Shown here piece after piece: positions 3,013-22,833 of a stretch of 64,000 bases of DNA. This DNA is from Geoglobus acetivorans. GTDB taxonomy: Archaea; Halobacteriota; Archaeoglobi; Archaeoglobales; Archaeoglobaceae. Where the stretch lies: contig NZ_CP009552.1 of assembly GCF_000789255.1 (NCBI RefSeq), positions 558,001 to 622,000 of the forward strand. The letters run 5' to 3'. A program made the position numbers and the translations under genes. The notes beneath the pieces are model-generated. The model did not search any database and was not told the DNA's origin. It saw only the letters and a list, made by a program, of their open reading frames with translations. The first letter of the stretch is position 1. Each line of letters begins with the position of its first letter.

Positions 3013-3837
3013 ATGCAGGAAGGGATAGACGAAAGTGTGGTAGACGACATCCTGAAAACTGCTGAAGCAGACACTCCCGAAGGAAAGCTTGAGAAGCTGG
3101 AAAAAGAGGTGGACTTGATAAAAGGTTCGATCAAAAAGCTGCTTATTGACATAAGGGAGACATTGAACAACATAGAAAATCCGTTTCAAAACCTTCAGAG
3201 TCTTGCTGAAGGTTTAGGATATGCTGCATCTCAGGCCCCACCCCCTCAGCAGATACAGATAATACCTGGAAAACCTCTTGAAGAACAGATGGAAGAGGAA
3301 ACACAAGAGGCCCAAGAAACGCCTGCTGAAGAAGAAGCTGAGGTTCCTGCTGAGCCTGTGGGAGGTGTTAATGGAGATATGAGAGGGGTTAAACCTTTCC
3401 ACGATAATATCACGTCTCAAGATAAAGTAGAATCAGAAGAAAAATCAAATGGAGGTGAATCTATTGGGATGGAGGTAATTCAGCCTGAGTTTGGGGCATT
3501 AGACGATATGGGCAAGGATATGCTTTTTGCTGATAAGAAGCTTTTAAAGTATGATATTGAAGTGCTCTTTGAAATAATGGGCTGGGTAAGGGGCATGCTT
3601 GAAAAATATAGCATCGAATCTCTCAAGCTCATGCTGGGGATCTTTGAATCCGCAGGATATATAAAAGAGGAGACGGCAGAGTTCGTGTCACAGATTGCTG
3701 ATCTGATAGTCATGAACGATAACTTCGAAGAGATTGTCTTCGAGCTGTACAGGCTTTACAAGATTCTGTACCCTGAGGACAGAACAATTGATTCCAAAGT
3801 GCTTAGCCTGATACTGGATAGAAAAATAGTGATGTAA
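3013..3837 (+). CDS. arlD: ArlD/E-like archaellum motor scaffold protein
   Basis: A 274-residue cytosolic protein with the layout of archaellum accessory proteins ArlC/D/E, which form the ring that couples the ArlH-ArlI-ArlJ motor to the chemotaxis system. Seen: an N-terminal coiled coil (about 20-65) with the ENPF segment typical of this family, a long acidic Pro/Glu-rich linker (70-150), and a C-terminal helical domain (about 170-274) with MGWVRGMLEKY and SAGYIKEE resembling the FlaD/E domain. Only one such gene is present, so it may do the work of separate ArlC, D and E proteins elsewhere. GAGGTGAT lies just upstream of the ATG. Function is by family resemblance and position. Confidence 0.75.
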   Translation: MQEGIDESVVDDILKTAEADTPEGKLEKLEKEVDLIKGSIKKLLIDIRETLNNIENPFQNLQSLAEGLGYAASQAPPPQQIQIIPGKPLEEQMEEETQEAQETPAEEEAEVPAEPVGGVNGDMRGVKPFHDNITSQDKVESEEKSNGGESIGMEVIQPEFGALDDMGKDMLFADKKLLKYDIEVLFEIMGWVRGMLEKYSIESLKLMLGIFESAGYIKEETAEFVSQIADLIVMNDNFEEIVFELYRLYKILYPEDRTIDSKVLSLILDRKIVM

Positions 3838-5581: not shown

Positions 5582-7471
5582 ATGACAGACAGTAAACTTG
5601 AATTCAGTTACAAGCCCAGGGAGCTTAAACAGGGTGTTGTGGCTAATTTCCCGTTTAAGCCCAAGCAACTCGAAGATACACATAGCCACGAGAATCTTCA
5701 GAGCTGTGGAATCTACAGATTGCTGCCTGAAAGGATGAAAAGAGAGGTGGAGAAAAATCTCCACCTGCTTGAATATATTCACATTCTCCCGATAGACAAG
5801 ATTGGAATACCGAGATTTGCCCCAAAGCTCGACAGGAAAAAGCACGGAGACATGGATAATCCAAATCTTATCTACCCCGCTGACGAGCAGATATATATTC
5901 ATATTTATCCGGATAAGAATGATGTCAGGAATTACTACATTCCAATAGAGCCGACACTGCTAACTGGTGTTGAAGACCTGCTGAAACAGGTAGAACTGAA
6001 GCTTGTTGATTACATAACTGACATCGAATTTGATCCTGAAGACGAGGCTGTAAAAACCAGAATTCTGAAAGATGCTCTTAAAGAGATATGTGAAATCGTC
6101 GATAAAAGTGAGCTTGCTGAAAAAGGTATTGCGAACGATGTTCAGGGCAAATTGAGTCTCGCACCATCTCCAAAAATAAAATTTGGCTTCTTGTCCAGAC
6201 TATTCAGCAAAAATGGGTCATCCAAAATCGACAAGATTTATGTAACTGAACAGCAATACAAGGCGCTGGAATATGCACTAATAAGGGATAAAATAGGTCT
6301 CGGTGTTCTTGAACCATATATTCGAGATAAATACATAGAGGATATTTCATGCAGCGGTCTCGGTCCAATATTTATTGAACACAAGATCTTCAAAGGGTTG
6401 AAAAGCGTAATTGAATTTAGAGAAGAAGAGACGCTCAACAAATTTATAATAAAGCTTGCTGAAAGGATTGGCAAACCAGTCACTTACAAAGACCCCATAG
6501 TCGATGCTACCCTGCCAGATGGAAGCAGAATTAACATAGTGTACGGCAACGATATTAGCAAAAACGGAAGTAATTTTACAATAAGAAAGTTCAATGAAAC
6601 ACCATTTAGCGTCTTACAGCTAATAGAATTTGGTTCTCTCGACTATATGATTGCAGGATATCTTTGGCTTCTGATAAGTGAAGGTATGAGTGGATTTATC
6701 TGCGGAGAAACTGCAAGTGGTAAAACCACATTACTCAATGCGATAACAGCATTTATTAGGCCTGATGCTAAAGTTGTCACCATTGAGGACACTCCTGAGC
6801 TGCAGGTACCCCACAGAAACTGGACGAGAGAAGTCACCAGAGGCAGTACGAGAGGTGGTACACTTGGCGAAGGGAGTGGCTCAGATGTTACAATGTTCGA
6901 TTTGCTCAAAGCGGCATTAAGGCAGAGGCCCAATTACATACTCGTCGGAGAGATCAGAGGTGTTGAGGGCAACATTGCATTTCAGGCCATGCAGACGGGT
7001 CATCCTGTCATGTCCACGTTTCATGCTGCCACTGTGGAAAAGCTCATCCAGAGACTTACAACCGAGCCCATAAGCGTTCCAAAAACGTTTATCGATAACC
7101 TAAACTTCGTAGTTATTCAGAGTGCCGTGAGAAGACCTGATGGAAAACTCGTAAGAAGGGTGTTGAGCGTAAGCGAGATAATTGGGTACAACCCACAAAA
7201 AGGTGGAGTATCATTTATCGAAGTTTTTCAGTGGGATCCTGTAACAGACACTCATGTTTTTACCGGATTTGGTAGCTCGTATCTTTTGGAGCAGAAGATA
7301 GCCACTCGACTCGGCATTCCACCTAATAAGAAGAAAGTGATTTACCAAGAAGTCGAAAAAAGAGCAAAAATACTGAAAAAATTGCACCAGGAAGGCGTAG
7401 TGGACTTCTACGAGTTCTTTAGAACACTGTCGAAGATACAGAAAAGCGGTCTGCTGAACATAAAGGTGTGA
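5582..7471 (+). CDS. arlI: Archaellum motor and assembly ATPase ArlI
   Basis: A 629-residue secretion-type ATPase of the PilT/GspE superfamily that powers both filament assembly and rotation. Walker A GETASGKT is at about 375-382, an Asp box region follows, and Walker B ILVGEIRG at about 453-460. The start ATG 5582 has no good ribosome site, but the open frame to 5483 would overlap ArlH by 59 bases with unrelated sequence. The 370 residues before the nucleotide-binding domain are longer than usual for this family (typically about 510-560 residues in total); the N-terminal hundred residues look poorly conserved. Translationally coupled to ArlJ, whose ribosome site overlaps the stop codon. Confidence 0.93.
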   Translation: MTDSKLEFSYKPRELKQGVVANFPFKPKQLEDTHSHENLQSCGIYRLLPERMKREVEKNLHLLEYIHILPIDKIGIPRFAPKLDRKKHGDMDNPNLIYPADEQIYIHIYPDKNDVRNYYIPIEPTLLTGVEDLLKQVELKLVDYITDIEFDPEDEAVKTRILKDALKEICEIVDKSELAEKGIANDVQGKLSLAPSPKIKFGFLSRLFSKNGSSKIDKIYVTEQQYKALEYALIRDKIGLGVLEPYIRDKYIEDISCSGLGPIFIEHKIFKGLKSVIEFREEETLNKFIIKLAERIGKPVTYKDPIVDATLPDGSRINIVYGNDISKNGSNFTIRKFNETPFSVLQLIEFGSLDYMIAGYLWLLISEGMSGFICGETASGKTTLLNAITAFIRPDAKVVTIEDTPELQVPHRNWTREVTRGSTRGGTLGEGSGSDVTMFDLLKAALRQRPNYILVGEIRGVEGNIAFQAMQTGHPVMSTFHAATVEKLIQRLTTEPISVPKTFIDNLNFVVIQSAVRRPDGKLVRRVLSVSEIIGYNPQKGGVSFIEVFQWDPVTDTHVFTGFGSSYLLEQKIATRLGIPPNKKKVIYQEVEKRAKILKKLHQEGVVDFYEFFRTLSKIQKSGLLNIKV

Positions 7472-7482
7472 GGTGGATACGT

Positions 7483-9120
7483 ATGGAATTCAAGACATCT
7501 AAGATATTCAAAACCAAAAAAAGTTTCAGACAGAAGGAAATAAACATACCTCTGTTTGCAAACATAGCCAGGAAACTAAAAGAAATGAGTGAAGAGAAGC
7601 TAATGGATAACGATCTACTTTTCACACTCACATACATGGCATCACTATCAACTGCAAACCTGAGCAGAGATAAAATATTTGAACTCGTTGCCGAAAAAAA
7701 GGAATACAGTCCCAGCAAGTACTTCAAACAAATTCGCGATTTGACTCAAAACTGGCATTATGACTATGCAACGGCATGTGAGCTTATAGCAGAGAAAGTA
7801 AAGCATAAAAGGTTGAAAGAGCTTCTTAACAGATTTTCAAATGCCATAGCGTCTGGAGAACCTGATGAAGAATTTATAGAGCGAGAATGGAGAACTTTCA
7901 AGACCGTGAGAAAGGACGAGTATCAGAGGAGTCTTGAAAGCCTGAGAAAGTGGACCGATGCATATGTGTCTATCCTTGTCTCCACCACATTGATTTCGGT
8001 GGTTATCCTGCTTTCCATCGTAATCTACAGCGTTAGCGATCCCCTATCAATGATACTCACAGCGATATTCTCAAGCCTTGCATTTTCGCTTTTTGGAGTT
8101 TTTATGCTGTATAAGGCGACGCCAAAAGACGCAAAGACACACAATATGCCAATAAAATCAAAGGAACAAACGACAATCTCAAGGCTACAAGTACTGCTTT
8201 TACCAATTTTTCTCGCGGCGTTACTTGTTTTTTCGATCTTACCTGCCGTATTTAATCCCGAAATGGAAATACTGGGCATTGATGCAAAAGGAATTGGTCT
8301 TATAATTTCAGGTTTCGTTTTGTTACCACTGGGAATAATTGGTTACAGGGATGACAAGAAAATCAGTAAAAGGGATGAAGCGTTCACCAGCGTAATCCGA
8401 GGCCTTGGTGCAACAATTTCCGGTGCTGGAGTCGGAATGGCCGAAGCCCTGTCAAGGCTGGACAAAAAGAATCTGGGTGAACTGAAAGACCTCGTCATGC
8501 CATTGCATAAGAGATTGAGTCTCGGACTGGATCCAAAGATAAGCTGGGACAAATTTACCGGCGAGAGTGGAAGCTATCTAATAAGCAAACTTACACCAAT
8601 ATTCATTGATGCAACGGATATGGGTGGTGATGCGAATTTAGTCGGAGAGATTGTGGGTTCTTCAAACCTGGAGATGGTCCTCTTAAGACTTAAAAGAGAC
8701 CTGATCTCTAACGGTTTTATAAACTTGGTAATCCCGCTGCACGTTTCGATGGTTGGTTTGATACTTTTTATCACAAAAATACTTGAGAAATTCACGAGTC
8801 TGATTTCAAAAATGTTTGAGTCTCAACTCTCTACTTTTGGAAGTGCCTCGGATATTATGAGCAAGACTGGACTGGCAGGTATGAACTTTGGACTTTTCAG
8901 TGCTGTGCCAGTTGGCCTTTTTGAGATGTATGCACTCTTTGTCAGCCTAATTCTGATTCTCTCAAACGCTCTGTCAATGAAAATTGTAAAGGGAAGTGCT
9001 AATTACATGATGTACTTCTACATCAGCATTTTGATGATACTTTCGGGCATAATATTCATATTTGTGCCAATAGGCGTAGATTGGGCGTTTTCATTCCCCT
9101 CGTTAGCGGAGGCGGGTTAA
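7483..9120 (+). CDS. arlJ: Archaellum membrane platform protein ArlJ
   Basis: A 545-residue polytopic membrane protein of the type II/IV secretion platform family (TadC/GspF-like), the membrane anchor of the archaellum. Two or three hydrophobic helices near 160-215, two near 240-285, then a soluble loop with conserved SGAGVGMAEAL, and further helices near 425 and 470-540. The start ATG 7483 has GAGGTGG upstream overlapping the ArlI stop; the earlier GTG at 7468 lies inside that site. Completes the ArlH-I-J core. Confidence 0.92.
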   Translation: MEFKTSKIFKTKKSFRQKEINIPLFANIARKLKEMSEEKLMDNDLLFTLTYMASLSTANLSRDKIFELVAEKKEYSPSKYFKQIRDLTQNWHYDYATACELIAEKVKHKRLKELLNRFSNAIASGEPDEEFIEREWRTFKTVRKDEYQRSLESLRKWTDAYVSILVSTTLISVVILLSIVIYSVSDPLSMILTAIFSSLAFSLFGVFMLYKATPKDAKTHNMPIKSKEQTTISRLQVLLLPIFLAALLVFSILPAVFNPEMEILGIDAKGIGLIISGFVLLPLGIIGYRDDKKISKRDEAFTSVIRGLGATISGAGVGMAEALSRLDKKNLGELKDLVMPLHKRLSLGLDPKISWDKFTGESGSYLISKLTPIFIDATDMGGDANLVGEIVGSSNLEMVLLRLKRDLISNGFINLVIPLHVSMVGLILFITKILEKFTSLISKMFESQLSTFGSASDIMSKTGLAGMNFGLFSAVPVGLFEMYALFVSLILILSNALSMKIVKGSANYMMYFYISILMILSGIIFIFVPIGVDWAFSFPSLAEAG

Positions 9121-9156
9121 AATGGCCAGAATGGTAGTACTGGGAGGTGGATGAGT

Positions 9157-9798
9157 ATGTGGGAAATAATTGTTGGAGTCGTATTCGCAGTTGTGGCTAT
9201 TGCTGTGCCACAGCTACTGTCCAAAAATAATCTGAGCCTTAGGCTACCAAATATAAAAATAAAGAAAAACGTGGACGAAGAGATCAAAAAAATTGACCAG
9301 GTGCTGGAGAAAGTTGCTTCAGAAGGCATAAAGAAGGGTGCTGAATCAAATCCTGGCAGTACAGACGACGCAAGCCCAATTGACGAACTCGGCGTGAAAA
9401 ATGTAGAAGTGCAGGAAAATCTGCTCGAAGAAATGGATACTGCGAGTCAGATAAACACACCTGAAGCAGTTTCTGAGGAAACTGAAGATCTCCCTGGATT
9501 GCCAGAGCTTGGACAGCTGGATGACTTGTCTATGGAAGATGTTGAGGAGGAGATTTCCATTGTTCCTCTTGAAGAGACTGACGAAGAAGACTATGATGAA
9601 GATGAGGGTGAAACGAAAATAGAATTCGATGAAGAGGATGATCTGATCTCCAGCCTTGCGAAAGAAGTTCAGGTAGAGGAAGAGGAGGAGATAGACCTGC
9701 TCAGAGACCTCAAAGGGAAAAAATTTGCTGCTGAGGAGCTTGAATCTGAATTGAATGAAATATTGACGAAATTAAAGTCCCTGCAGGGAGTGTCATGA
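9157..9798 (+). CDS. Membrane-anchored acidic protein, archaellum-linked, unknown function
   Basis: A 213-residue protein not assigned to a family. Seen: one N-terminal transmembrane helix (about 2-20, IIVGVVFAVVAIAVPQLL), a basic stretch just after it (LRLPNIKIKKN) that suggests a cytoplasmic tail, a coiled-coil-like segment, a long low-complexity acidic region (about 70-170, many Glu/Asp), and a C-terminal amphipathic helix (AAEELESELNEILTKLKSL). It begins 36 bases after ArlJ and overlaps the next gene by four bases, so it is in the archaellum operon. The shape recalls a tethered scaffold, as ArlX is in Crenarchaeota, but no sequence similarity is claimed. The start is ATG 9157, six bases after GGGAGGTGG; ATG 9151 abuts it. 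Confidence 0.75.
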   Translation: MWEIIVGVVFAVVAIAVPQLLSKNNLSLRLPNIKIKKNVDEEIKKIDQVLEKVASEGIKKGAESNPGSTDDASPIDELGVKNVEVQENLLEEMDTASQINTPEAVSEETEDLPGLPELGQLDDLSMEDVEEEISIVPLEETDEEDYDEDEGETKIEFDEEDDLISSLAKEVQVEEEEEIDLLRDLKGKKFAAEELESELNEILTKLKSLQGVS

Positions 9799-10469
9799 TG
9801 GATAGCAACTCTGCAAGAATTAGTGAACTGCTTTTCAAAGCGTTTGAAATAGCAATCAATGTATGGTTTCTTAAAGATAGAAAGGATATTTTCAAATACT
9901 TTACAAGTAAAATTTCTGAACTCGACATCTGCACGGCCGTTATAATTCTGGATGGTTCAGAAAAGTATACTATGTTAAAAGAGGATGTGAGCACATGCAG
10001 ATATTTAAACTTCCAGCCAAAGTTCGTCAACATTGTTCCGTGTAGCAGGTGCAATGGGAACACAATGCATGATTTTTTGTTCACAATGCCCCTTTCCGAA
10101 GATACGTCGATATACATATTTATAAAAGAGGACGAAAACTTCGAAGAGGCTGTTCAAGTTTTCAGTGATCTCACGAATTTTTTGATCAAGGTTGTCGAAT
10201 CAATTGAAGCAAGAGAAAAGCTGGAAGGCGCTTTAAATCAGTTAAATGCCAATCTGGAGTATTTCCAGTATCTTGCAGACAGGTTGAGGAATGCTCTTGC
10301 CGTCATTCTTGGCGTTGCTGAACTTGAAGACGAGATAGAATATAAACAGGCCATACGTTTTATCAAGGAGAGCAGTCTAAAAATGAAAAAAGTTCTTGAC
10401 GAAATGCATGAATATGAATCAAAAACTAAAAAGAATTTTGATGAAATTCTATCTTCTTTTGAGGATTAA
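9795..10469 (+). CDS. GAF-like plus degenerate histidine-kinase dimerisation domain protein
   Basis: A 224-residue soluble protein. Residues about 1-135 look like a GAF-type sensor domain (alternating helices and strands, ELDICTAVIIL) with a CSRC motif near 78-81 that could bind metal or act as a redox pair. Residues about 150-215 resemble the two-helix dimerisation domain of histidine kinases: LADRLRNALAVILGVAEL aligns with the H-box SHELRTPL, but the histidine position is Asp. There is no ATPase domain. So it cannot be a kinase; it may bind CheY-type receivers, a kinase or the motor. It overlaps the acidic membrane protein gene by four bases and precedes the chemoreceptor gene, linking motor and taxis genes. 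ATG 9798 is an alternative start. Confidence 0.7.
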   Translation: MMDSNSARISELLFKAFEIAINVWFLKDRKDIFKYFTSKISELDICTAVIILDGSEKYTMLKEDVSTCRYLNFQPKFVNIVPCSRCNGNTMHDFLFTMPLSEDTSIYIFIKEDENFEEAVQVFSDLTNFLIKVVESIEAREKLEGALNQLNANLEYFQYLADRLRNALAVILGVAELEDEIEYKQAIRFIKESSLKMKKVLDEMHEYESKTKKNFDEILSSFED

Positions 10470-10795
10470 AAGTACAAGCGAAGCGGTTAGAAGAGCAGAG
10501 TAGAAGTTTATAACCGGATCAAATTTATCATATAGGCTCAACCACCGATAAGTGAGCATTACTGAGGAGAATACAGCTATCGCTGAGAAACTTATGTCTG
10601 TCGGGCTTATTTTTTGCGCATCCATTACTTTAGTTAAACATAAAATCAGATATATAATTTACTTTCCACACTGTGCTTACATTTTTGCAATTGCATTTTT
10701 GAAATTTCACAATACCACTTTCGGATTTTGGATTCGCTTTCTCAAAGCAATCTTTATTATTATCTTAAGAAGTTAATTTGCCTGAGGTGGTGAGC
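10470..10795 (+). promoter_or_regulatory. Non-coding gap and promoter region before the chemoreceptor gene
   Basis: A 326-base AT-rich stretch without a convincing gene. A 30-base segment at 10680-10709 matches 22 of 30 positions of a segment upstream of the first archaellin (1630-1659), including TTTTGCAATT and AAATTTCA at identical spacing. A TATA-like tttattatt lies at 10753-10761, about 35 bases before the GTG start, with GAGGTGG at 10784-10790. A second TATA-like gtttataac at 10508-10516 has no gene at the right distance. A 74-codon open frame here was judged spurious. Confidence 0.5.
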
Positions 10796-13700
10796 GTGGA
10801 TGATTTAGAAAAACTCCTCTCTGTTCTAAATGACGAAGAGACAGTTTCAAGACTCAGGTCAATTATAGAATCTGGAACATTTGCCAAAAGGGAGAACGAC
10901 TGCAACAAAGAGAAAACAGAAATTAAAAAACTAAAAAATGAACTTTCTGAGAAAAACAAAGAAATAGAGTCTCTAAAGAAGCAGCTCACGAGTAAAAAAG
11001 ATGGCTCAGCCGTATTGATAAGGGCGATTTTCAAAAATCTTCCAGGAATAGTGATTTTTGTAGACAGGGATGGTAGAATCGCTTATGCTAACGATAATGC
11101 TGCCAGACTTGCAGGGTATGAGACTGGAGAACAGTTAATCGGAAAAAAACCGTCTGATTTTGCAGTGATCCATCCAGATTACGAGGACGTGGGCAGGGAG
11201 ATGATCAATAGAATAAAAAGCGGAGAATCAGTCGAAATTGGAGCAAAAATCATAGCCAAGAATGGGTTTGAGTTTTTTGCAGAAATAAAAGCATACCCCG
11301 TGTACATCGACGGTAACTACGTTGGCTACGTTGAGTCATTTTACGATATTACTGAACTCAAACAAAAAGAAAATGAGCTTAATGAAAGGAGAGAGTTCGT
11401 TAAAAGAGTCTTTTTCAATCTACCTCAGCCCATCTATGCAGTATTCGTAGATTCGGATGGTAAAATCAGATATGTGAATAACGAGCTTGTCAGACTGGCA
11501 GGATACAATGACGCGAATGATATAACCGGGAAAAATATAAGTGAAGTAATCATATCAAAAACGGAGGGTAACCTTGTCGAGCGTGTATTGAGAACGGGTA
11601 GACCTGTCGTCGGATTCGAGGACGAAATAATGGTGGGTAATACAAATTTTCCGGCAGTGATCTCATGTGTGCCTGTTTTTGGTCAGGAGAATAAACTCGA
11701 TGGTGTGCTTTATACGTTTATCGATGTCACCGAGACAAAGGAGAAGGAAGAAGAAATTAAAGAGATTCTCGACAGTATCCCTGTCGCTGCGTTCATGGTC
11801 GATAAAGACCACAAGCTGAGATACTGGAACAAGGCAGCGGAGAAGCTCACAGGTGTTAAGGCTGAAGAAATCGTTGGTACAGATAAACAGTGGATGCCAT
11901 TTTACAAGGAGAAGCGCCCCATTCTCGCAGATCTGATTATAGACAATCCCAAGGATGCTGAGAAACACTACGACATTGTTAACAGGTCCGACATAGCAGA
12001 TGAGGCCTACGTTGTTGAGACGTGGATTGATGTTAAAAACGGAGAGAGACGTTACGTAAAGGCCACTGCAGCACCTATCTATGATATAAACGGTAATCTT
12101 ACCGCAGTTGTAGAAACTGTTGAAGATTTGACTGAAATTAAACAAACATTGTCCTTCATAGAGCAGTTTGTGAAAAACATACCCTATCCAGCGTATCTTC
12201 TGTTTGTGGATGAAGATGGTATCATAAGATACTGTAATGACGAGGTGGCAAAGCTTGCAGGATTCGAAAAAGCCGATGAACTTATTGGAAAACACCCCAG
12301 CGAGGTCTTCCACACTGTCGGTGGAAAGACTGTGGCAGACAGAGTAATTGAGACGAAAGAACCTGTAATAAACCTTAGAGCAACCACAAGAGCTGTCAAC
12401 GGAGAAGAGATACCCGTACTGGTTTCATGCGTTCCAATGTACATTGACGGTAAATTCGTCGGAGCGATAGATGTTTTCATGGATGTTTCAGAGGTTAAAC
12501 AGAAAGAGGAGGAAGTAAAAACAATACTCAATGCAGTTGCCACCCCGGTCATAAAGGTGGATCGGGACTTTACAATTACTGCTGCCAACAATGCCACTGA
12601 GAAAGTTCTTGGGATAAAGTTGGATGACATTATAGGTAAGAAATGTTACGAGCTTTTCAGAACAGATGACTGTAATACCGAAAAGTGTGCGGTCCATAGA
12701 GCGATGGTCACCGGGGAGTCAGTAACCGAAGAGACAATTGCAAGATATAATGGAAACGAAACTCCCATAATGTACACCGGATCACCCATAAGAAACGAAA
12801 AGGGAGAGATAATTGGAGCTGTAGAATATGTTGTTGACCTGAGTGAAATTAAACAGAAAGAAAAGGAAATCGAGGATATGCTCAAATACGTTAGGTCAAA
12901 CCTTGAAAAACTTAGCTATGGAATCAAGGAACTTCAATCAGGAAATCTCGATGTGAGACTTGAAAAAGAGAAGGATGATGAGTTTGGTGATGTTGTTGAC
13001 ACATTCAATACTCTTGCCGAAAAGATGGAAAATATAGTTGTGAAACTTGTATACGGTATGAAAAACGTCAACGAGAAGCTTAACGAGACTGACGAAGCGC
13101 TCACCCAGATGAATTCAGGAATGGAACAGATCAGCTCTGCCTCTCAGCAGATTGCAACCGGAAGTGAAAATCTATCAAGACTCGCAAACGAATCGATGGT
13201 GCATCTAAAGGAATCAGAAAAAATGTTCAAGGATCTCACAGAAAAAGCTGTAGAATTCACACATACTTCCAAGGTCGCATCGGAAAATGCACAGAAAGCA
13301 GCGGAGGTTGGTGAAAAGGCACTGAGTGCAATCGAGCAGATTGTTGCTGAAGTGGATGTTGCAGCCAGTGTTGTGCAGGCTCTTGAGGAAGCAGTCATTA
13401 AAATAGGAAAGGTTACAGAGAAAATCAAGACGATTGCAGATCAGACCAACCTTCTCGCATTAAATGCAGCTATCGAGGCAGCAAGAGCTGGAGAACACGG
13501 CAGGGGATTTGCAGTTGTTGCAGATGAAGTCAGAAAACTAGCTGAAGAGAGCCGGAAGAGCACTGAAGAGATAAATGAGATTGTCTCAAAAGTCCAGGAG
13601 GAAACCAAGAAAGTTATCAATGCAACAAACGCTGTGAAAGAAGCGAGTATGGAAGGCAGTGCCAACATTACTGAAGCATTAAATAAAGCGAGAGATATAG

Positions 13701-14002
13701 GCAATTCTGTGATTGAAATCAGTAAAATGCTTGAAACAGTGGCAGATGCTGCTCAGAAGGGGCTGGAAAAGATAGAGCAGGTAGCTAAGAACTTTGAGGA
13801 AGTCGCATCAACGGCTGAAGAAAACGCTGCAAGCAGCGAAGAGACTTCAGCAGCGATTGAGGAGCAGACTGCAGCAATCCAGCAGATCAACCTTGCTATG
13901 GCAAAGATAAAAGACATTGCTAATGAAACGTTGAATACGATGATTGAAACATTTAAGTCAAGCAAGGTTGCTCAATCCAATAACCTGTTAGATGAGAAAT
14001 AG
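10796..14002 (+). CDS. Soluble methyl-accepting taxis receptor with five PAS domains
   Basis: A 1068-residue cytoplasmic chemoreceptor; no transmembrane helix is present. Order: N-terminal coiled coil (about 25-65), five PAS domains starting near 73, 203, 322, 454 and 576, HAMP-like segment (about 694-745), then a methyl-accepting signalling domain whose hairpin tip ([28 protein letters not shown] region) is near 877-920. PAS domains usually bind flavin, haem or small ligands, so redox or gas sensing is likely; the fifth carries [15 protein letters not shown], a possible cysteine sensor. The GTG start at 10796 follows GAGGTGG at five bases; an in-frame TTG at 10778 precedes that site. First gene of the che cluster. 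Confidence 0.93.
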
Positions 14003-14039: not shown

Positions 14040-14507
14040 ATGCAGGAAGTTATAAGAAGCAACGATAATGTTCAAGTAATAGTGTTCACACTCGGAGAAG
14101 AGAGATACGGAGTAGATATCTCGCAAGTCAGGGAGATAATCAAACCTTCAGAGATTACGAGGATTCCAAACGCCCCCGATTTTGTAGAAGGAGTGATAAA
14201 CTTGCGAGGGCAGATTACAACAATAATCAATCTCAGAAAGCGTTTTAACATGGAACCAAAACCAATAGACAACAATACAAGAATTATAGTCGTGGAATAC
14301 GATAATGCAGTAATTGGCATGATGGTCGACAATGTAACTGAAGTCAAGTACCTTCCAGTCTCGGAAATTGAGGAGCTTCCCCAAGTCATTACTTCCCGGA
14401 GTGAAGCAAGATTTCTAAAAGGCGTTGGAAAGCTACCGGATGGTCTCTTAATACTGATTGACCTGAATAAAGTTCTGAGCGATGAAGAATATGAAAAATT
14501 GAAGTGA
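14040..14507 (+). CDS. cheW: Chemotaxis coupling protein CheW
   Basis: A 155-residue single-domain CheW that joins receptor signalling tips to CheA. Seen: the core VFTLGEERYGVDISQVREII, the NLRGQ loop (VINLRGQITTIINLRKRF) that contacts receptors and CheA P5, and the DNVTEV strand. Start placed at ATG 14040 with GGTGAT upstream; the GTG nine bases earlier is part of that site. Located between the receptor and cheF, with cheF starting three bases after its stop. Confidence 0.95.
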   Translation: MQEVIRSNDNVQVIVFTLGEERYGVDISQVREIIKPSEITRIPNAPDFVEGVINLRGQITTIINLRKRFNMEPKPIDNNTRIIVVEYDNAVIGMMVDNVTEVKYLPVSEIEELPQVITSRSEARFLKGVGKLPDGLLILIDLNKVLSDEEYEKLK

Positions 14508-14509
14508 CT

Positions 14510-15319
14510 ATGCCGGAAAAAGTTCTACTCAAAACGCCTGTGGAACTGTATGAAAACGGATGGATTCAAAAGGAGGCCATACTATATAATGACGCTATAA
14601 TGGTTGGTGGATTGAATATCCTATTCAAGGAGATAAAAGATGTTGAATTAACCAGTTACAACGGCAAGACTGCTATAAGGCTACAGACGAATAATGGCGA
14701 GTTTTTTTTAAATTTCGGAAGTAAACAAGGCCAGATTTTTAGATTTCTCACATTCAACTTAAAGGCGGATCGTTTTGCAGTATATTTTATTTCGCCCGCT
14801 ATTCGTGGTGGAGTAATCGTGAGCGATGCAAGGTGGGAAAAAGGATACCTTGCCATCACTGAAAATGCAATATGGTTCCTATCGCCCAACAAACAGATAA
14901 GAATTCCGTGGGATAATCTGGGGTCGGTGGGCAAAGAACTTAAGACAGTAAATAAAAAGCAACGTGCAGTGTTAAAGGTAACCCATGTAGAGAAAAATGA
15001 AGTAATTACGAGTTATGTCTTGTGTCCTGAAACTACGCTGGAGCTACTTGACCAATATATAAACCAGTTACTGGACAGGCAAAAACCAAGAGAGAAGCTC
15101 TCGGAGATAGAAGAACAGATACTCACAATGGTTTATTCGGGTGTGGATTCAGCAGGTATAGAGTCAATATTGGGGATACCTACGGAAGAACTGAACAGAT
15201 ATTATGACCGCCTAATAGAATTAGGATTAGCCAAAGTTGTTAAAATACGGAAAGAAATAGAATTGACCCCCAAAGGGGTAAATCTCGTAAATGATGCTAT
15301 GAAAAAAGTGGTGGGGTGA
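14510..15319 (+). CDS. cheF: Archaeal taxis adaptor CheF
   Basis: A 269-residue protein of the CheF family (formerly DUF439), found only in archaea that have both archaella and che genes. In Halobacterium and Haloferax it binds CheY, CheC/CheD and the archaellum ring and is needed for switching. Seen: two N-terminal beta-rich PH-like segments (about 1-185) and a C-terminal winged-helix-like segment (about 195-269, with SEIEEQILTMVYSGV and ELNRYYDRLIELGL). Its place between cheW and cheY agrees. A GTG two codons upstream overlapping the cheW stop is an alternative start. Confidence 0.88.
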   Translation: MPEKVLLKTPVELYENGWIQKEAILYNDAIMVGGLNILFKEIKDVELTSYNGKTAIRLQTNNGEFFLNFGSKQGQIFRFLTFNLKADRFAVYFISPAIRGGVIVSDARWEKGYLAITENAIWFLSPNKQIRIPWDNLGSVGKELKTVNKKQRAVLKVTHVEKNEVITSYVLCPETTLELLDQYINQLLDRQKPREKLSEIEEQILTMVYSGVDSAGIESILGIPTEELNRYYDRLIELGLAKVVKIRKEIELTPKGVNLVNDAMKKVVG

Positions 15320-20581: not shown

Positions 20582-20989
20582 TCAGTAAATTCCTTTGTTG
20601 TTGAAAAAAGGACCATATTTCTTATCTGAGTTTAATATGTGGTTTGTCAACCAACTTTTTAAAAAGCTGAGGACTTCCATTGTTAACGTCAGCTGTCCAT
20701 CTTCATACTTTTTCTTAAACTCACCAACTTTGGATACAAACTGTTCATGTTCTGCCTTGTGCTTAATGTATCCCGGATAGTTATATTGTTCCATAAGTTT
20801 TTCTTCCGTTGAAAAATGAGTTATTGTGTATTCAACCATATCATTCAGCAATTCGCCCATAATTTCTTTCCCCTTTCCTTCAAGCATTGCATCATGCAGT
20901 CTATTTATCATGGAAACAAGCTTCTTATGCTGCTCATCAATCTCCTTAATGTTAACACTAAAACTTTCATTCCATGAAATCAACGCCAT
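20582..20989 (-). CDS. Bacteriohemerythrin-type O2-binding protein
   Basis: A 135-residue single-domain hemerythrin. The full set of di-iron ligands is present: DEQH, HFSTE (HxxxE), HKAEH (HxxxH) and HILNSD (HxxxxD). Such proteins bind O2 reversibly and in prokaryotes often serve O2 sensing or delivery, frequently beside taxis genes. Convergent with cheR, 38 bases apart. Start set at ATG 20989 (MALISWNESF), eight bases after GGGGG; ATG 20995 is nearer to it. A 37-base near-perfect palindrome lies 46 bases upstream and probably controls it. Confidence 0.9.
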   Translation of the reverse strand: MALISWNESFSVNIKEIDEQHKKLVSMINRLHDAMLEGKGKEIMGELLNDMVEYTITHFSTEEKLMEQYNYPGYIKHKAEHEQFVSKVGEFKKKYEDGQLTLTMEVLSFLKSWLTNHILNSDKKYGPFFNNKGIY

Positions 20990-21034
20990 GCTCATTACCC
21001 CCTTTACTATACTATTCTGGTTCAAGTTCGTGGT

Positions 21035-21458: not shown

Positions 21459-21806
21459 TCAATTTTCAATTAAAGCTGCTAACCTCTTTAAGTCCTCCAA
21501 GATTTCAATAGCACCAATTCCTACATCGGTAAGGAAATAATAATCGCCTTCCTTATCGACCATGTTCAGAGATTTCAATTCTTTCAGATGCCTACCAAGA
21601 ACACCAGGATTCAAACGTGTTTCGAACATTATTTGTGAGAATTTCTTCTCCCCCCGTTTTAGACAGAATAGTATTTCTGGAACCCCTCTTTTTGAAATCG
21701 TTTTCAGAATTCCTTTGAAAATTTCAAGTTCTTTACTCTCAAACTGGCTTATCACCATCAGTTCCTGAGGCGAGATCATCGCACCGACACCCCACATCCT
21801 CATCAT
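21459..21806 (-). CDS. Winged-helix transcription regulator
   Basis: A protein of up to 115 residues with an ArsR/HxlR-like winged helix (about 30-100): helix-turn-helix FSQIMFETRLNPGVLGRHLKELKSLNMV followed by a wing (KEGDYYFLTDVG). No effector domain. Candidate regulator of the neighbouring hemerythrin or of the archaellum operon, as winged-helix EarA is in Methanococcus; that is inference. Start uncertain: ATGs at 21806, 21803, 21797 and 21779, with a TATA-like ctatatc near 21822 that would give a nearly leaderless message. An IS481-like element is inserted 65 bases upstream. Confidence 0.75.
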   Translation of the reverse strand: MMRMWGVGAMISPQELMVISQFESKELEIFKGILKTISKRGVPEILFCLKRGEKKFSQIMFETRLNPGVLGRHLKELKSLNMVDKEGDYYFLTDVGIGAIEILEDLKRLAALIEN

Positions 21807-21870: not shown

Positions 21871-22833
21871 TGTCTTTTCCCGAAATTATTTCCCACTTCA
21901 ACAAACCCCCATGTGAAACTTGACGAGAAAGCGATAAAATGGATTATCAGAGAGAAAGGGAAGGGTACACCGACAAAGGAGATAGCAGAGATCGAAAACA
22001 TAACACCAAGAAGAGTAAATCAGATCTACAAGCAATACAAAGATACTGGAGAAATACCAAAGCCAAAGAAACCAGGTAGACCTAAAAAAGAACTATCAGA
22101 AGAAGAAATAGAAGCCATAAAAGAAGCCTATGAAGAGTACAGGTGTAATGCAGTAGTTCTCCAAACAATCTTAAAGGAAAGAGGTTACAGAATAAGCAAG
22201 AACAAAATACACGAAGTGTTGAGAATGAACGGCTATGCTAAGGAGGAGAAGAACAAGAAAAAGCGTAAAAAGTGGATAAGGTATGAGAGAAAGCACTCTA
22301 TGGAATTATGGCATGCAGACTGGTTTTTCTATAACGGGAAGTGGATAATTGCTTATCTGGACGATGCTTCCCGTCTGATTACTGGTTACGGAGTATTTGA
22401 TAAAGCAACATCTGAGAATGCCATAAAAGTGCTAAAAGAAGCCATGGATGATTATGGCAGGCCGGAATCAATCCTGACGGATAGAGGTACTCAGTTCTAC
22501 GCATCTGCAGGGGAGAAGAAGGCTAAAGGAGTATCTAAATTTGAGAAATTCCTTGCAGAGAATGAAATTAAGCATATTGTGGGTAGGGTGAATCACCCAC
22601 AAACGAATGGAAAGATAGAGAGGTTCTATGGAACGCTGGAAGCTAAAATCAAGTATTTCGATACAGTAGATGAATTCATGGAGTGGTACAATCACAAAAG
22701 ACCCCACATGAGTCTCAACTTAGATGAACTGGAGACTCCCTATAAAGCATTTTTGAGAAAGTTGACTCCTGAGAGAATATTGAGTTATTCGTGGAGGTGG
22801 TTTGATGGTGGGAAATGATTTTAGGAAACTACA
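21871..22833 (+). mobile_element. IS481-family insertion sequence, intact, 963 bp
   Basis: A complete insertion sequence. Ends are TGT...ACA; the terminal inverted repeats match at 21 of the first 26 positions (left 21871-21896, right 22808-22833). It carries one transposase gene filling nearly the whole element and is flanked by a perfect 15-base direct repeat. Size, TGT ends and long target duplication agree with the IS481 family. The perfect duplication and open transposase frame point to a recent insertion. It sits upstream of a winged-helix gene and beyond the taxis operon. Confidence 0.9.
21913..22818 (+). CDS. IS481-family transposase
   Basis: A 301-residue DDE transposase. N-terminal helix-turn-helix (about 1-45, ending RRVNQIYKQY), a second HTH region (60-105), basic stretch KKKRKKW, then an rve/RNase H-like integrase core with Asp in MELWHADWF, Asp in ILTDRGTQF and Glu in NGKIERFYG. 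Starts with GTG; an ATG two bases earlier is out of frame and hits a stop. The stop lies 15 bases from the right end of the element. Full length with no frameshift, so probably active. Confidence 0.93.
   Translation: MKLDEKAIKWIIREKGKGTPTKEIAEIENITPRRVNQIYKQYKDTGEIPKPKKPGRPKKELSEEEIEAIKEAYEEYRCNAVVLQTILKERGYRISKNKIHEVLRMNGYAKEEKNKKKRKKWIRYERKHSMELWHADWFFYNGKWIIAYLDDASRLITGYGVFDKATSENAIKVLKEAMDDYGRPESILTDRGTQFYASAGEKKAKGVSKFEKFLAENEIKHIVGRVNHPQTNGKIERFYGTLEAKIKYFDTVDEFMEWYNHKRPHMSLNLDELETPYKAFLRKLTPERILSYSWRWFDGGK

Follow-up and report, generated by a model that had tools for sequence, protein, structure and literature searches.

The window, that is, the whole stretch of 64,000 nucleotides analysed here, corresponds to positions 558001-622000 of a single-contig genome of 1,860,815 bases. 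The genes of its archaellum (arl) and chemotaxis (che) region to which this paper refers are as follows:

3013..3837 (+): ArlD-like protein (distant FlaD/E), the sole one in the locus
7468..9120 (+): arlJ, platform membrane protein, the anchor of the neighbourhood analysis
9157..9798 (+): P1, putative membrane-anchored acidic tether, 213 aa, of a family kept downstream of arlJ
9795..10469 (+): P2, GAF + DHp-only protein, 224 aa, without an ATPase domain
10778..14002 (+): chemoreceptor (PAS-HAMP-MCPsignal)
14504..15319 (+): cheF (PF04283, E 9.3e-18)

As an earlier note on this DNA had described, P1 and P2 lie directly after arlJ and overlap each other by 4 bases, the stop codon of the former and the start codon of the latter sharing ATGA. 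The claim of the same note that they belong to one operon with their neighbours holds on the upstream side, where a gap of 36 nt separates arlJ from P1, but not on the downstream side, where the chemoreceptor gene lies 308 nt beyond P2; therefore, P1 and P2 go with arl and not with che. The arlH-arlI-arlJ core is contiguous both in the window and in its relatives, and the arlJ of the window is 54-98% identical to that of the P1-bearing Archaeoglobi and 33-50% identical to that of other members of the phylum. The single ArlD-like protein, which had also been noticed earlier, belongs to a family giving weak Arch_fla_DE matches in five of the five members tested (best E 0.0019), and the window protein itself scores under the Pfam cut-off for this model. 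In addition, a cheC gene, which is a known type of CheY phosphatase gene, sits in the same cluster as P2.

The opposite strand encodes, immediately beyond the che genes, a protein with a hemerythrin domain at 20582-21025 (-) (PF01814, E 1.4e-18), which possibly links oxygen or iron to taxis; the host organism is taken to be an iron reducer. A small winged-helix (ArsR-like) protein is encoded at 21459-21806 (-), and similar genes are present at L044:16948-17229, L081:1078-1377, L091:11288-11575 and L092:4972-5316. In several Archaeoglobi such genes thus have archaellum or chemoreceptor genes as neighbours; HTH_5 was found in both proteins tested, and the recurring proteins are candidate regulators of motility. 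A transposase-like ORF, IS630-like by eye, is located at 21913-22818 (+), 1.4 kb past the che cluster.

The start of P1 was placed at 9157 in preference to a possible ATG at 9151, because the orthologues begin there (MWE/MIE) and GGAGGTG is properly spaced. From the N-terminus to the C-terminus, the following segments are distinguished in the protein:

9157..9231 (+): predicted N-terminal transmembrane helix, residues 3-27 (hydropathy and AF2 helix 3-27)
9259..9339 (+): juxtamembrane helix with a conserved KEIDEKLEEVV-like motif (AF2 helix 37-63, alignments A5 and A8)
9346..9624 (+): acidic, mostly disordered linker (composition and low pLDDT)
9418..9444 (+): motif NLLEEMDTA inside the linker, strongly conserved in Archaeoglobi
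9625..9789 (+): C-terminal module FDEEDDLISSL...LLRDLKG...EELESELNEIL, the portion matching phylum-wide (AF2 helix 160-213)

This anatomy nearly agrees with the earlier proposal, in which a membrane helix and a basic stretch lead into some 100 acidic residues and the protein closes with a C-terminal helix. The Kyte-Doolittle maximum is 2.54 at residue 4, the stretch after the N-terminal helix contains 7 K/R in 23 residues, and the acidic segment consists of 107 residues, of which 40 are D/E and 3 are K/R. In the linker motif, L91 and M95 are invariant and E94 is nearly so among the 19 Archaeoglobi sequences. Membrane insertion and disorder of the linker are predicted; the AF2 model, a monomer model, is weak as a whole (pLDDT 62), and the linker has pLDDT values mostly below 60. 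Sequence and fold searches of the PDB gave no meaningful match to P1, and no Pfam or NCBIfam model recognizes P1 or its homologues. Hits to SDE2, EzrA, NirdL HTH and others were below the cut-offs and inconsistent between members, so they were dismissed as low-complexity noise. Likewise, the idea that P1 diverged from a copy of the ArlD-like protein was dropped, the hhalign probability against the local one being 0.1%; P1 has a predicted membrane helix and no Pfam match to the Arch_fla_DE or FlaC domain.

A P1 profile search found the protein in 20 of the 59 genomes of the class Archaeoglobi. A native archaellum, defined by an ArlH with E <1e-120 to the ArlH of the window, is present in 19 genomes of this class, and all 19 have P1, in agreement with the earlier suggestion of a (predicted) membrane-anchored protein tied to the motor. 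Outside these 19, P1 occurs within the class only in G046, on a short contig beside an arlJ fragment; the P1 and P2 of G046 are almost identical to their G020 counterparts and are possibly contamination. Archaeoglobi genomes with only a distant arlJ-like gene, which presumably include those of A. veneficus and F. placidus, gave no P1 in the profile search. Makarova et al. (PMC4858521) describe the archaellum loci of these two species as foreign and displaced. In the Archaeoglobi with a native archaellum, P1 immediately follows arlJ except in G044, G050 and G049. A putative short lipoprotein gene lies between arlJ and P1 in G044 and G050 (L079:9135-9803; L084:10677-11369), and the P1 gene of G049 sits between arlH and arlI, not adjoining arlJ. 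G049, which is taken to be A. sulfaticallidus, has no CheF or CheW match though P1 is kept. A published table scores A. sulfaticallidus as positive for flagella and negative for chemotaxis (PMC8322695). Moreover, in five g10 genomes P1 and P2 remain with arl, and cheF and cheW are on other contigs. Because G049 retains P1 without these two chemotaxis proteins and the g10 genomes split arl from che, P1 goes with the arl motor, not with chemotaxis, and the idea that P1 or P2 is a plain chemotaxis gene was rejected on the same evidence.

The profile made from the 19 sequences also matched proteins elsewhere in the phylum, mostly longer ones of about 200-470 aa, and the matched gene was right after arlJ in 17 of the 18 phylum regions examined, the exception being G062, in which the match was weak and no arl genes were nearby. 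The phylum survey consisted of searches with a joint P1 profile (A8) and with arlJ over the same 247 genomes, those with an arlJ match at E 1e-50 or better being counted as arlJ-bearing. P1 was matched in 65 of the 85 arlJ-bearing genomes as against 5 of the 162 genomes without arlJ, with a joint profile that includes the sequences of 24 matched genes or their close kin, most matches being outside the profile. Four of these 5 matches without arlJ are weak and N-terminal, and G088 has a strong P1 match though its arlJ was not found at the 1e-50 threshold. The association of P1 with arlJ has a Fisher P of about 2e-35, which is descriptive only, the genomes being related; the 19 Archaeoglobi and 65 phylum genomes are non-independent samples. 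P1 lies at most 1.7 kb downstream of arlJ on the same strand in 63 genomes, and P1 and P2 keep their place next to arlJ across many genomes. This conservation is far above chance, and the proximity to arl genes pointed out in the earlier note is thus kept in relatives. No P1 match was obtained in 20 of the 85 arlJ-bearing genomes, which comprise nearly all the arlJ-bearing ones of family f7, those of the genera g64 and g78 (f5), G182 and G243; there, P1 is either too diverged or dispensable.

Members of the P1 family have one or two hydrophobic helices at the N-terminus, followed by a basic region, a helix resembling KEIDEKLEEVV and a long, acidic, low-complexity linker, and many carry the short motif NLLEEMETA or similar. 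The C-terminal module, FxxxDDLIxSLKxxxxxxKxxxxxLLRDLKGxKxxAxxLxxELEExLxxL, is common even to distant members. The wider family would appear to reach the methanogens, a view based in part on Desmond et al. (PMC1914349).

The second gene, P2, has the following parts:

9804..10124 (+): GAF-like domain (AF2 model; GAF structures matched by Foldseek)
10041..10052 (+): CSRC pair (C83, C86), not kept in all orthologues (alignment A6)
10140..10322 (+): long signalling helix and DHp helix 1, residues 116-176 (AF2 model)
10278..10292 (+): D162-R-L-R-N166, altered H-box (DxxxN; family alignment)
10341..10463 (+): DHp helix 2, where the protein ends, without ATPase

Here too the anatomy is close to that claimed before. 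Residues 155-210 match HisKA with a score exceeding the Pfam cut-off (E 1.2e-6), Asp162 of the H-box occupies the aligned position of the phospho-accepting His, and no HATPase was found with Pfam. The AF2 monomer model (pLDDT 86) is composed of a GAF-like part and then a long helical hairpin. Among the orthologues C46 is invariant, and those of the Archaeoglobus and Geoglobus types have CxC or CxxC plus His; in the five g10 genomes P2 lacks the entire loop with these Cys and His residues, the remainder of the protein being conserved (A6).

Orthologues of P2 are present in G000, G001, G009, G020, G040, G041, G042, G044, G046, G064-G068 and G070, and G043 has a broken copy in an assembly which is 79% complete. 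P2 is missing from four archaellum-bearing lineages, G019, G049, G050 and G053. Of these, G049 stands alone among archaellum-bearing genomes in having neither cheW nor cheF, and the other three carry chemotaxis genes. The place of P2 is taken in G019 (L044:14630-16771) by a membrane histidine kinase whose H-box is genuine (HisKA + HATPase), followed by a REC gene, and in G050 (L084:9094-9711 (-)) by an unrelated 205-aa ORF that gave no match in Pfam and resembles KaiC by eye only. In g10 genomes, a beta-propeller protein (PF09826, tested in L086), not chemoreceptors, comes after P2 (L086:11157-12977, L087:6947-8755, L089:6506-8332). P2 is therefore an optional, family-level (Archaeoglobaceae) addition that was replaced or lost in four lineages. 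The earlier view of both genes as local accessory genes consequently fits P2, an Archaeoglobaceae add-on, but not P1, whose family recurs after arlJ in related archaellum loci elsewhere in the phylum. The further proposal that the pair joins motor and taxis appears weak, in that P1-P2 accompany arl where cheF and cheW are elsewhere and the loss of P2 does not match the loss of chemotaxis.

The closest relatives of P2 are longer PAS/GAF proteins which also end after the DHp; the one seen at full length has PAS, GAF and HisKA and no HATPase. A profile search of the fetched ORFs gave 73 distinct members having the motif columns. The H-box position is Asp in 72 of the 73, the exception being a partial alignment without the DHp, in a set whose profile was built from Asp-type sequences and may under-sample His-type relatives. 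Asn is found at H+4 in 73/73, an acid at H+1 in 2/73 and His at H+1 in 8/73, and no ATPase was found behind any of the 73. A contig scan with the P2-family pattern, in which the Asp excludes His-type relatives, found Archaeoglobi and one contig labelled Alkanophagales. G040, which is taken to be A. fulgidus, holds about ten DHp-only Asp-box proteins (loci L153-L180), a large expansion. The architecture of HisKA without HATPase was reported to occur mainly in Archaeoglobi and Methanomicrobia, with a conserved His and a suggested phosphatase function (Galperin et al. 2018, PMC5847659); as a guess, the His at H+1 in 8 of the 73 might explain why a conserved His is stated there and Asp is found here. 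The description of P2 as a pseudo-kinase is right insofar as the His and the ATPase are absent, but P2 is not a lone degenerate protein, since its Asp is near-invariant in a large Archaeoglobaceae family. For the same reason, Asp and Asn being near-invariant over 73 proteins, a decayed, pseudogene-like kinase was discarded as an explanation.

In the type II order of archaellum genes, arlG stands before arlF and a true flaC is absent. The archaellum locus of A. fulgidus is classed as type II, and distant FlaD homologues occur between flaB and flaG (Desmond et al., PMC1914349). Makarova et al. (PMC4858521) give the archaellum components as seven universal ones plus FlaC/D/E. No description of the gene downstream of arlJ was found in the main text of archaellum papers (PMC4858521 and PMC8978795), though one may stand in supplementary tables, and a literature search on the A. 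fulgidus locus tags AF_1046/AF_1047 returned unrelated papers only. P1 has the appearance of a genuine, as yet unnamed component of the swimming motor in related archaea with an arl2-type archaellum, and the best reading is that it would serve this archaellum as a membrane-anchored motor scaffold or tether. The N-terminal helix would be in the membrane next to ArlJ, the long acidic chain would extend into the cytoplasm, and the C-terminal helical module, with the LLEEM motif, may bind and hold a cytoplasmic motor part, thereby tethering it; the most likely partners would be the core formed by ArlH/ArlI and the ring of the ArlD-like protein. A membrane helix is present in ArlX and absent from ArlC/D/E (PMC8978795); a partner anchored in the membrane would therefore close a gap in the arl2 motors of euryarchaea, and P1 would supply these motors with the membrane anchor that ArlX supplies to crenarchaeal ones.

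The succession of a helix, a long acidic disordered chain and a C-terminal helical module would also suit a PopZ-like polar tether or cap linker which, standing outside the motor ring, fastens the motor or the chemoreceptors to some polar structure in the cytoplasm; how the motor is connected with the polar cap is still to be worked out (PMC8978795). Such a polar tether is unlikely, because the membrane helix, the adjacency to arlJ and the presence without CheF/CheW fit a motor part at least equally, and no polar cap has been established for these species in the literature found. Since the P1 gene overlaps or directly adjoins arlJ in most genomes, as co-translational partners do, P1 could instead be an assembly factor or chaperone for ArlJ or the archaellins that is absent from the finished motor; however, the strongly conserved C-terminal module at the far end of a long linker points to a lasting cytoplasmic contact and the G049 gene is away from arlJ, between arlH and arlI, which makes such a role quite improbable.

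With regard to P2, the residues of the H-box are instructive. HisKA kinases require T/N at H+4 for their phosphatase but not their kinase activity, and E/D at H+1 for their kinase but not their phosphatase activity; CheZ and NarX use DxxxQ (Willett and Kirby, PMC3510030). P2 carries an amide (Asn) at the phosphatase position and Asp four residues earlier. Because it has no His, has lost the acid at H+1 and has no ATPase, P2 would no longer be a kinase, and a protein that binds or dephosphorylates a response regulator seems a better description of it than a switch kinase. The simplest reading of the sequence is a GAF-controlled response-regulator binder or phosphatase at the motor: the GAF domain would pass a signal along the helix to the DHp hairpin, in which kinase activity would be lost and the Asn of HisKA phosphatases kept, and P2 would probably bind CheY or some other REC-containing response regulator, in or close to the motor, and shorten the lifetime of its phosphate. 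That P2 binds a REC protein in some manner is fairly probable; that it is a response-regulator phosphatase is a tentative proposal with clearly less than an even chance of being correct. An Asp-for-His HisKA phosphatase is so far without a demonstrated example, which weighs against the phosphatase reading, and the presence of cheC in the same cluster, together with the patchy occurrence of P2, counts against a necessary role.

Several relatives of P2 adjoin full kinases or REC genes (L053, L057, L058, L060), and a true kinase and a REC gene occupy its place in G019; both observations would suit a P2 that acts, without phosphatase activity, as a sensing partner heterodimerizing with true histidine kinases or as a scaffold. 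Nevertheless, the P2-bearing genomes examined have no kinase gene but cheA at the arl locus, and pure scaffolding leaves the invariant Asn unexplained, so that such a partner is rather doubtful. The earlier note took P2 to be redox-responsive through its CSRC pair. Although the invariant C46, the CxC/CxxC plus His of the Archaeoglobus/Geoglobus type and the Cys residues in the same GAF region of many relatives speak for this, the relatives L007 and L020 are without the Cys pair, and the g10 orthologues have lost the loop. The claim has accordingly been given up for the core function of P2, and a redox switch of this kind is very improbable.

Taken together, a structural arl2 motor component in P1 and a lineage-specific regulator in P2 make up a joint reading which has a little better than an even chance of being correct. 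A bolder version, in which P1 would be an unnamed core component of the euryarchaeal arl2 archaellum, that is, the membrane anchor of its ring from Archaeoglobi to methanogens, joined in Archaeoglobaceae by a DHp-only DxxxN phosphatase, is speculative and on balance not likely. The question to which P1 would be relevant is how the euryarchaeal cytoplasmic archaellum ring is held to the membrane; P1, whose gene immediately follows arlJ in most arl2-type loci sampled across the phylum, is a direct candidate for this role. If the proposal for P2 is true, a DxxxN-type phosphatase derived from a kinase fold would reset the response regulator at the motor and be a signal terminator. The kinase-dead, ATPase-less DHp proteins of Archaeoglobaceae, in which one set of residues is near-absolutely conserved, make the proposed phosphatase role testable.

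Among known systems, ArlX of the Crenarchaeota is a proposed scaffold around ArlH/ArlI (PMC8978795), and P1 is like it in having a single N-terminal membrane helix (predicted in P1), a helical cytoplasmic part and a gene in the arl locus. Unlike ArlX, P1 has a long acidic disordered linker, follows arlJ and coexists with an ArlD-like protein, and the two are likened by description, not by sequence. A cytoplasmic contact with the motor is proposed for both ArlC/D/E and P1, but ArlC/D/E are without a membrane helix, whereas one is predicted in P1, and a profile comparison of P1 with the ArlD-like protein of the locus revealed no similarity. Polar scaffolds of the PopZ/TipN type consist of an acidic disordered chain with terminal helices; P1 is similar in these respects, adds a membrane helix and is likened to them by architecture only. 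P2 resembles the CheZ/HisKA_3 phosphatases (DxxxQ) in having Asp and an amide four apart on a helix (PMC3510030), but it has Asn in place of Gln and a HisKA-type fold, is known from sequence alone, and homology is not claimed. Its closest counterparts are the proteins described as HisKA without HATPase, which likewise combine a PAS/GAF sensor with a C-terminal HisKA-like domain and no ATPase (PMC5847659). These are stated in the same paper to have a conserved His, while the Archaeoglobaceae members studied here have Asp in 72/73, and P2 differs from the others in its short length, in having GAF as its sole sensor domain and in its tie to the arl locus.
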